NCBI RefSeq assembly: GCF_002797325.1
Contig: NZ_KZ454938.1
Span: forward strand, 1,810,267-1,874,266
Length of the DNA: 64,000 nucleotides
Source of the DNA: Bacillus sp. FJAT-45037
GTDB lineage: Bacteria > Bacillota > Bacilli > Bacillales > Bacillaceae_D
Direction of reading: 5' to 3'
In this document: one piece after another, positions 4,631 to 40,685 of the stretch
How the letters are laid out: every line of letters starts with the position of its first letter
Position numbering within the stretch: the stretch's first letter is position 1
The notes under the pieces: model-generated
Databases searched by the model: none
Seen by the model: only the letters and a program-made list of their open reading frames with translations
Told to the model about the DNA's origin: nothing
Program-made: the position numbers and the translations under genes

Positions 4631-5416
4631 TCAACTTTGGGCGTGCTTATTCATTTGCTGAATCGCTGCTTTTTCAAGCCTTGATACTTGCGCTTGCGAA
4701 ATACCAATTTCATCAGCCACTTCCATCTGTGTCTTGCCTTGATAAAACCTCATATTCAAAATCATTTTCTCACGGTCATTCAATCTGACCATCGCTTCTT
4801 TTAACGCAATTTCTTCCACCCAGTTTACGTCTTTATTACGATCATCACTAATTTGATCCATGACGAAAATAGGATCTCCTCCGTCATTGTAAATTGGTTC
4901 AAATAATGAAACTGGATCTTGGATCGCATCTAGTGCAAACACGACATCTTCTTTTGGAACATCTAAGATTTTCGCAATTTCTTGAACCGTGGGCTCCGTT
5001 TCACGCTTTTTTTCAGCCATTAGTTGATCACGCACTTGTAATGCTTTGTAGGCAATATCTCGCAATGACCTTGATACACGAATAGGGTTATTATCTCGTA
5101 AATAACGTCTAATTTCACCAATGATCATTGGCACTGCATACGTTGAAAATTTAACATTTTGACCTAAATCGAAATTGTCAATCGACTTCATTAATCCAAT
5201 GCAACCGACTTGAAACAGATCATCGACGTATTCCCCGCGATTGTTGAAACGTTGAATGACGCTAAGTACTAAACGTAAATTCCCATTCACTAACACTTCT
5301 CTTGCACTGTAATCACCACTTTGAAGCTGAGTAAAAAGTACGCGCATTTCTGTGCTTTTTAATACTGGAAGCTTCGATGTATCCACACCACAAATTTCAA
5401 CTTTATTTCGTGTCAA
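4631..5416 (-). CDS. sigG: RNA polymerase sporulation sigma factor SigG
   Basis: SigG directs late transcription in the engulfed forespore. The protein (261 residues) contains the SigG-specific N-terminus NKVEICGVDTSKLP (bound by anti-sigma factors), region 2 (QRFNNRGEYVDDLFQVGCIGLM, quoted in two pieces elsewhere, and KFSTYAVPMIIGEIRRYLRD), and a region 4 helix-turn-helix near the end (GISQAQVSRLEKAA). It starts with TTG, 7 bases after an AGGAGGG site, which may keep translation modest. A SigF/SigG-type promoter stands upstream, and a strong terminator follows. It is downstream of sigE as in Bacillus. Confidence 0.98.
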   Translation of the reverse strand: MTRNKVEICGVDTSKLPVLKSTEMRVLFTQLQSGDYSAREVLVNGNLRLVLSVIQRFNNRGEYVDDLFQVGCIGLMKSIDNFDLGQNVKFSTYAVPMIIGEIRRYLRDNNPIRVSRSLRDIAYKALQVRDQLMAEKKRETEPTVQEIAKILDVPKEDVVFALDAIQDPVSLFEPIYNDGGDPIFVMDQISDDRNKDVNWVEEIALKEAMVRLNDREKMILNMRFYQGKTQMEVADEIGISQAQVSRLEKAAIQQMNKHAQS

Positions 5417-38839: not shown

Positions 38840-38871
38840 GAGACCTAGTTTCAGTGCTGAAACTAGGTCTC
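38840..38871. terminator. Hairpin between converging ylbJ and coaD
   Basis: A 15-bp perfect stem (gagacctagtttcag / ctgaaactaggtctc) with a 2-base spacer. T-runs are poor, but the position between convergent genes and the stability point to a bidirectional terminator. Confidence 0.78.
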
Positions 38872-39947: not shown

Positions 39948-40059
39948 ACATAACACCTATCTTTCTTCAGAACCATTATCCTCATCCTACCACAAATTGC
40001 CCGTATGACGCACTAGGACATCCTTCAATTCTTTTTTTAAAAGGGTGTATAATGTTGAA
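39948..40059. other. Gap with small RNA promoter region
   Basis: Between rsmD and the small RNA there are about 110 bases. The plus strand has a T-rich stretch and TATAAT at 40048-40053, the -10 of the small RNA; the -35 region is weak (TTCAAT-like). The minus strand must also hold the rsmD promoter, which I could not identify. Confidence 0.5.
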
Positions 40060-40229
40060 TTTTTTTGTTCATAATGACAACTAGCGGCATTGATTCAATG
40101 TTGCAACAACCGCGGAGAAGGCTTACGTTTCCCCATAAGTTCTTCCTCCGGTTTCTCCTCTCCCATAGCCTCAGTCATACTTCGGTATGCAATAAGGCAC
40201 CTCGTAAGGATATCTTACGAGGTTTTTTT
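40060..40229 (+). ncRNA. Probable small RNA between rsmD and the next gene
   Basis: This stretch has the layout of an independent RNA gene: TATAAT at 40048-40053, no plausible coding frame, a stable cUUCGg-type hairpin (catac TTCG gtatg, 40176-40189), and a strong terminator (40199-40229). A C/T-rich segment with two CCTCC/CTCC runs (40141-40164) could pair with ribosome binding sites. A further 5' hairpin (gcgg...ccgc, near 40084-40113) is possible. The place beside rsmD (ylbH) recalls the Rfam element called ylbH leader, but the terminator shows transcription away from rsmD. Confidence 0.65.
40199..40229 (+). terminator. Terminator of the small RNA
   Basis: A 10-bp perfect stem (acctcgtaag / cttacgaggt) around gatat, then TTTTTT on the plus strand. 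No coding gene ends upstream on this strand within 1 kb, so it must serve a non-coding transcript. Confidence 0.9.
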
Positions 40230-40292
40230 CTGTCGACATCCATGAAAGAAGATGCTACATTTTGGTGAGTCCCACAAAAGGAGAGATCATCT

Positions 40293-40685
40293 ATGATTCA
40301 ACGTTTTATAGAGTTAGGCGAAGGATATTCCGATATTTACGAGCTTGTAGAGCTTATTCGTGTCAATCAAACACGTATTCACCGCTTGCTTCGTCTTGAT
40401 ACAACAATAGGCGGTAATGAACGTACGTCTTTAGCTGTTTGCTTAAATCCTGCAACACCAGGTAAATTGATGCCCATCTACATATGTAAAGAAGGAATTT
40501 CAAACCCTGACACCCTCAAAAATCAGCGCTATAACCTTTTTGAACAAATCGCTAATGAAGTGCCTGGTGTCACCATTCATCAACTCCATGTCAAAGATTC
40601 AAAGCAATTTGAAGAAACCGATCTTTACTATCAATATTTAATTGGGATCCTTAGGTTAAATCGTTACATTCCACCTCTCCAATAA
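40293..40685 (+). CDS. Conserved Bacillaceae protein, function unknown
   Basis: A soluble 130-residue protein beginning MIQRFIELGEGYSDIYELVEL, a well-formed start with AGGAG 9 bases upstream. I believe it belongs to a small Bacillaceae family (DUF7147-like), but this is from memory of similar N-termini, and some entries carry misleading enzyme names. No catalytic motif is visible; the C-terminal end YYQYLIGILRLNRYIPPLQ is hydrophobic-aromatic. It lies between the small RNA terminator and a shared terminator. Confidence 0.7.
   Translation: MIQRFIELGEGYSDIYELVELIRVNQTRIHRLLRLDTTIGGNERTSLAVCLNPATPGKLMPIYICKEGISNPDTLKNQRYNLFEQIANEVPGVTIHQLHVKDSKQFEETDLYYQYLIGILRLNRYIPPLQ

Follow-up and report, generated by a model that had tools for sequence, protein, structure and literature searches.

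CsfG is a small RNA of Bacillus subtilis that is said to have been described by Marchais et al. in 2011. Its reported properties, as far as the available portion of PMC3574147 goes, are the following: the northern signal in B. subtilis comes from the reverse strand only and is assigned to CsfG, the peak corresponds to 136 nt, and the RNA associates with Hfq. Control by sigma F/G is likewise taken from published work available in part, and for B. licheniformis an excerpt of PMC3871023 lists CsfG alongside ylbG and ylbH. The Rfam family RF00516, the ‘ylbH leader’, covers the same DNA, namely the core, the third hairpin and the terminator hairpin, and lacks the 5' hairpin; Rfam treats it as a cis leader and models it on the complementary strand. 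CsfG and the ‘ylbH leader’ are one already known element. Two RNA-seq studies have treated it as a leader: in the portions at hand it is undetected in PMC4634765 and listed in PMC4342826. Two further small RNAs, RoxS (RsaE) and FsrA, are likened to CsfG for their C-rich regions and grouped with it in the available parts of PMC8216469 and PMC4409812; their regulators, ResDE for RoxS/RsaE and Fur for FsrA (PMC8216469), differ from those of CsfG. According to PMC4409812, again in part, CsfG has three such C-rich regions in predicted single-stranded parts. The available text of PMC9147052 and PMC8216469 states that CsfG has no known mRNA targets, with which an excerpt of PMC12456014, counting it among the factors that regulate mRNAs, is at odds.

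The locus reported here lies in a window of 64,000 nucleotides (the whole stretch of DNA analysed) from Bacillus sp. FJAT-45037. The intergenic region 39948-40292 parts rsmD on the minus strand from a gene for a DUF7147 protein on the plus strand, and its plus strand very probably carries csfG, the local copy of the CsfG small RNA of spore formers (Table 1). The setting resembles that in B. subtilis in several respects: the element lies between ylbG and rsmD on the strand opposite to rsmD, has a sigma F/G-type promoter, C-rich regions and a terminator, and belongs to endospore formers. Unlike in B. subtilis, an MFS gene and the DUF7147 gene also sit between csfG and ylbG. A search of both strands with the Rfam covariance models, as proposed in the original prediction, recovered RF00516 on the minus strand (E 5.4e-16, gathering score 50) and no other family at or above its gathering score in the csfG region. 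That prediction had been made from the letters of the window alone, and much of it is borne out: the site between rsmD and an uncharacterised gene, the plus-strand terminator facing away from rsmD, the TTCG-capped stem and the C/T-rich tract, a type of sequence known to pair with ribosome binding sites, are all present. Its description of the small RNA as ‘unannotated’ gives way to the identification with CsfG, of which RF00516 models the complementary strand. Elsewhere in the window we observed a T-box leader at 62-295 on the minus strand (96.2 bits) and, just outside the coaD gene, a 14-pair stem at 38840-38871 that is terminator-like on both strands.

Table 1. The csfG element and its neighbours, in window coordinates
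Feature	Position	Strand	Basis or remark
-35 element GTATA, sigma F/G-type promoter	40047-40051	+	GYATR here in 89/94 distinct loci
-10-like element CATAATG, spacer 18	40070-40076	+	5/7 matches to CATACTA
csfG small RNA, ~147 nt	~40083-40229	+	start inferred from promoter, end from terminator
5' hairpin, not covered by Rfam model	40084-40104	+	fold; pairs kept in relatives
Core hairpin, UUUCCCC in loop, CUUCCUCCGGUU in 3' side	40108-40153	+	fold of window sequence
C/U-rich stretch CTTCCTCCGGTTTCTCCTCTCCC, most conserved part	40142-40164	+	40154-40164 unpaired in fold
Third hairpin, including TTCG-capped stem 40176-40189	40168-40198	+	fold; sequence varies among relatives
Intrinsic terminator	40199-40229	+	stem 40199-40223, T-run 40223-40229
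RF00516 match, complementary to csfG	40110-40231	-	83.5 bits
rsmD (ylbH), diverging from csfG; 39947 taken as start codon	39396-39947	-	TIGR00095, 186.8 bits
DUF7147 gene, downstream of csfG	40293-40685	+	PF23648, E 4.4e-52

RF00516 served to collect related loci: the family contributed 30, a further 30 were among the best of a class sample, and 36 were picked by hand from additional, mostly lower-scoring hits. Of these 96, 94 are distinct over the stretch compared. Neither the promoter nor the 5' hairpin is part of the RF00516 model. The pattern GYATR, followed by CATACTA, is the consensus of promoters read by sigma F and sigma G. Upstream of csfG such a promoter is present by sequence as GTATA, 18 bases and CATAATG; among the relatives, GYATR with room for a -10 element at 16-20 bases is found in 89 loci vs about 28% of dinucleotide shuffles, and a CATACTA-like -10 scoring at least 5 of 7 in 63/94 loci vs about 3%. 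As about 28% of shuffles also have GYATR, the case for the promoter rests on the -10 scores together with the near-fixed spacing, which is mostly 18 (57 loci) or 17 (21 loci). The csfG promoter appears to fit a forespore-type element, recognized by sigma F/sigma G. The host genome has sigF, sigG and hfq over their cut-offs, sigG lying inside the window at 4643-5407 on the minus strand. The original prediction had instead taken TATAAT (40048-40053) as the -10 box; the letters are there, but they overlap the -35 GTATA, and only 8/94 loci have TATAAT at this place. With the start set by the placement of the -35 and -10 elements, and TATAAT no longer serving as the latter, the transcript probably begins near 40083, and the previously proposed length of about 170 bases is therefore better replaced by about 147 nt.

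The predicted fold of the window sequence leaves UUUCCCC in the loop of the core hairpin and UCUCCUCUCCC unpaired after it, while CUUCCUCCGGUU is inside the hairpin. All three C-rich regions, UUUCCCC, CUUCCUCC and CUCCUCUCCC, are present, the first and third unpaired in this fold and the second within the core hairpin. Of the 94 distinct loci, 93 retain the 18-base core TCCGGTTTCTCCTCTCCC unchanged and all 94 have TTTCTCCTCTCCC, a conservation to be expected in a set selected with RF00516; the predicted core hairpin is near-invariant in the family alignment.

The C-rich parts of RoxS and FsrA pair with the ribosome-binding regions of mRNAs, whereby translation is blocked. A comparable course can be proposed for csfG: its RNA, given the sigma F/sigma G-type promoter, would be made chiefly in the forespore and end at its own terminator; it would fold into the 5', core and third hairpins with the loop UUUCCCC and UCUCCUCUCCC left free; and its C-rich parts would pair in trans with purine-rich ribosome-binding regions, the pairing blocking translation of the mRNAs concerned. 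Arguing from these features, we consider expression of csfG in the host species together with this mode of pairing somewhat better than an even bet. Target prediction with the C-rich tract, another suggestion of the original prediction, returned csfG alone: the host genome was searched for the 18-base complement GGRGRGGRGRRRYYGGRG, tolerating G-U and at most one mismatch. Any target in this genome would therefore pair over less than that length. The near-invariance of the core also seems to exceed what ordinary Shine-Dalgarno pairing would need, and this counts against the mechanism.

A different partner, the ribosome itself, is suggested by CUUCCUCCGGUUU, whose 13 bases are perfectly complementary to 16S rRNA. 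In the host genome the corresponding AAACCGGAGGAAG is present once at csfG and in eight other places, all on one strand; the one copy checked lies inside a match to SSU rRNA, and 34/5000 shuffled cores reach a complement of at least 13 bases within the 6.5-kb rRNA stretch concerned. Across lineages, however, the correspondence breaks down: the 13-mer is absent in 13/94 loci; among the genomes so affected, G003, G005, G043 and G180 keep the 13-base target in 6 to 11 copies (rRNA, judging by copy number), so that no matching changes preserve the pairing in them, and several others (such as G001, G004, G152 and G269) do not have the exact target either. Moreover, the piece kept in 94/94 loci lies mostly outside the complement, and the idea arose after the fact. 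Action of CsfG on the ribosome is thus very improbable, and 16S rRNA was rejected as its partner since the 13-base complement is not kept in all lineages. Pairing with mRNAs remains the mechanism that we favor for csfG.

The label that Rfam gives to the element implies a further reading, in which the minus strand would carry a cis-acting leader controlling rsmD. In its favor are the orientation of the RF00516 model, its score of 83.5 bits here, and the place of rsmD, downstream on the minus strand in most relatives: it is divergent from csfG in 56/60 loci (same strand in 3, not found in 1, where the contig ends early) and, in a scan of public genomes, in 103 of the 122 units among the matches listed (at least 117 stretches plus 4 viral ones), one of these at more than 2.5 kb. 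In that scan 2 units have rsmD on the same strand and 17, including the 4 viral ones, are without rsmD in the stretch. Promoter and terminator, however, point the other way. By our own criteria, a plus-sense terminator follows the core in 88/94 loci, and in at least some of the 6 exceptions there seems to be a terminator whose T-run is shortened or interrupted; an opposite-sense one within 125 bases beyond the core is found in 1/94. In the window, the scan that located the csfG terminator gave 3 terminator-like sites in 3 kb, which is not significant by itself because shuffles reach a mean of 1.7 (sd 1.4).

The 5' hairpin bears on the same question. Its mean fold energy is -10.8 kcal/mol on the plus strand, -7.6 for the reverse complement and -3.3 for mononucleotide shuffles, and 107 of the 827 pairs in its folds across loci are G-U. 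In the family alignment (35 distinct sequences out of 39 family loci) seven aligned pairs are kept in 35/35 sequences, one of the pairs being G-U in 29/35. Such G-U pairs exist on the plus strand only and turn into A-C mismatches on the minus strand. The covariation of hairpins that had been proposed as a check is found in part: both-sided changes occur at three pairs, in 5, 3 and 14 sequences, but three such pairs do not exceed what shuffles give (160/500 reach 3), whereas the 22 cells with both-sided changes compare with 7.1 in shuffles, of which 0/500 reach 22, with the score likewise at 0/500. The shuffle control was run on the whole structure, in which helix 2 is out of register, and we rely on helix 1 alone.

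Finally, the arrangement differs in one genus. The 3 same-strand loci belong to it, and 7/7 of its genomes (L036-L038, L108-L111) have the element on the rsmD strand, the modelled ‘leader’ therefore pointing away from rsmD. By eye, GTATA, GATAATG and a T-tailed terminator stem lie on the csfG strand in all seven; with respect to rsmD neither DUF7147 nor ylbG has changed orientation, and csfG is inverted against all three. One of the same-strand units of the public-genome scan, L114 from Bacillus sp. PAMC26568, is very likely the same locus as L108, one of the seven. Together with the B. subtilis evidence in the available part of PMC3574147, the promoter, the terminator, the G-U polarity and the inverted genus argue against a leader on the rsmD strand, and we regard a leader of rsmD as very unlikely. 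They agree with the original prediction of a separate plus-strand RNA with a promoter and terminator of its own, in the form of a homologous sequence at the rsmD-ylbG locus directed away from rsmD, a direction given by promoter, terminator and hairpin. On sequence grounds, the strand of csfG, its 5' hairpin, the type of its promoter, its terminator and its distribution are all supported.

That the element is a short protein gene or a dual-function RNA is the least likely of all: a conserved minus-strand ATG stands behind an SD-like GGAGG (ATGGGGAA in 87/94 loci), but the frames end at scattered lengths of 3 to 51 residues, core gaps of 1 to 4 bases between relatives (by eye) break them and argue against a conserved frame, the two plus-strand frames tested have no Pfam match, and the minus-strand mini-ORF (MGKR...) was rejected as a gene for want of a conserved end.

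The distribution of csfG follows sigma G, and the element occurs in endospore formers. In the family, 41/41 genomes are positive for RF00516; in the class sample the figure is 157/250 at E <= 0.001, of which 131 are over the cut-off. Splitting the class genomes by the best E-value to TIGR02850 gives three groups: 165 with strong sigma G (<1e-130), 13 intermediate (1e-97 to 1e-120) and 72 with no specific match; by the curated cut-off, sigma G is present in 160/250. RF00516 is present in 156/165 of the strong group vs 1/85 of those with a weaker or no specific match, i.e. in 0/13 intermediate genomes and in 1/72 of the remainder (G261, E 2e-4, below the RF00516 cut-off). Under strict filters, nine of the 165 strong genomes (G050, G055, G119, G158, G165, G211, G219, G249, G285) gave no element. 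The 13 intermediate genomes, all of them without csfG, carry one family label (f12; G066, G085, G100 and others), and it is possible that this is a spore-former lineage that lost or replaced csfG. A second weak RF00516 hit in G204 was judged not to be csfG. Exact matches to the 18-base core in the public-genome scan, among those listed, are mostly from Bacilli, with some from Clostridia, Bacillota MAGs and Fuchsiella; MAGs carrying the labels Acetobacteraceae (L194) and Desulfovibrio (L195) also have the core and may be misbinned. Plasmid records yielded one match, a real csfG on an 807-kb replicon of Bacillus velezensis. Two MAGs, of Thermoanaerobacterales (L138) and of a Firmicutes member (L165), have csfG-like sequences whose 5' part is altered; their stretches hold no rsmD, and RF00516 matches them below threshold, at 32.5 and 33.8 bits, respectively. 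In Paenibacillus alkalitolerans a second csfG core (L173:3413-3430) stands near a PF14069 gene, for stage VI sporulation protein F; another second core, in Paenibacillus oleatilyticus (L113:3696-3713), has no GYATR promoter match.

CsfG-like modules are also observed on viral contigs from IMG/VR. On one (L231:1415-1560, plus strand) the module lies just downstream of a whole tyrosine integrase gene (PF00589); on another (L230:5870-6015, minus strand) a similar module follows a C-terminal integrase remnant of 138 residues. Each has 34 bases identical to a host csfG among the loci compared, and both modules show an outer stem together with a terminator-like hairpin, with about four pairs changed on both sides between the two when the folds are compared. 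Against RF00516 both match at full length but below threshold (38.7 and 31 bits). Among the viral stretches with related patterns (37 and 15), only these two aligned well to the whole csfG core. A third, a 26.6-kb viral contig (L232:1-90), is cut at the contig end: its first bases already belong to a csfG core and an amidase gene lies close by, as would be seen at the end of a prophage. The presence of a CsfG-like module next to an integrase may be a new observation. As a tentative reading, to which we give distinctly less than even weight, phages could have captured the C/U-rich stretch of CsfG, either as a CsfG-like RNA that would act on host mRNAs or as an attachment site inside csfG that would restore the 3' end of the latter.

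The notion of csfG as a frequent prophage site was tried and rejected: 164/398 class genomes have the 18-base pattern and 211/298 order genomes the 21-base pattern, none has two copies in these two scans, and therefore no integrated pair was seen there. In the two Paenibacillus genomes with two 18-base cores (L173; L113 and L132) the stretches examined hold no similar integrase. A search for phages related by their integrase brought back only the query contig itself, and the relatives that turned up in phage protein searches all lay below 60% identity. Annotated phages gave weak 26-base matches, which were discarded: 45/45 records in one search were of Enterococcus phages, as were 32/34 in a second, the others being of Escherichia and Salmonella. 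The portions of the literature available on phages and csfG, or on prophage integration at rsmD in Bacillus, contain nothing that points to such a module.

The sequences of many relatives support both the strand of the element and its identity as csfG, although in Rfam it still carries the label of a leader; in one genus, promoter, RNA and terminator are inverted as a unit. CsfG occurs widely among spore formers, but has no known target according to two sources cited at the outset (PMC9147052, PMC8216469). Concrete starting points for finding its partner are the 18 near-invariant bases and the module carried by viral contigs.
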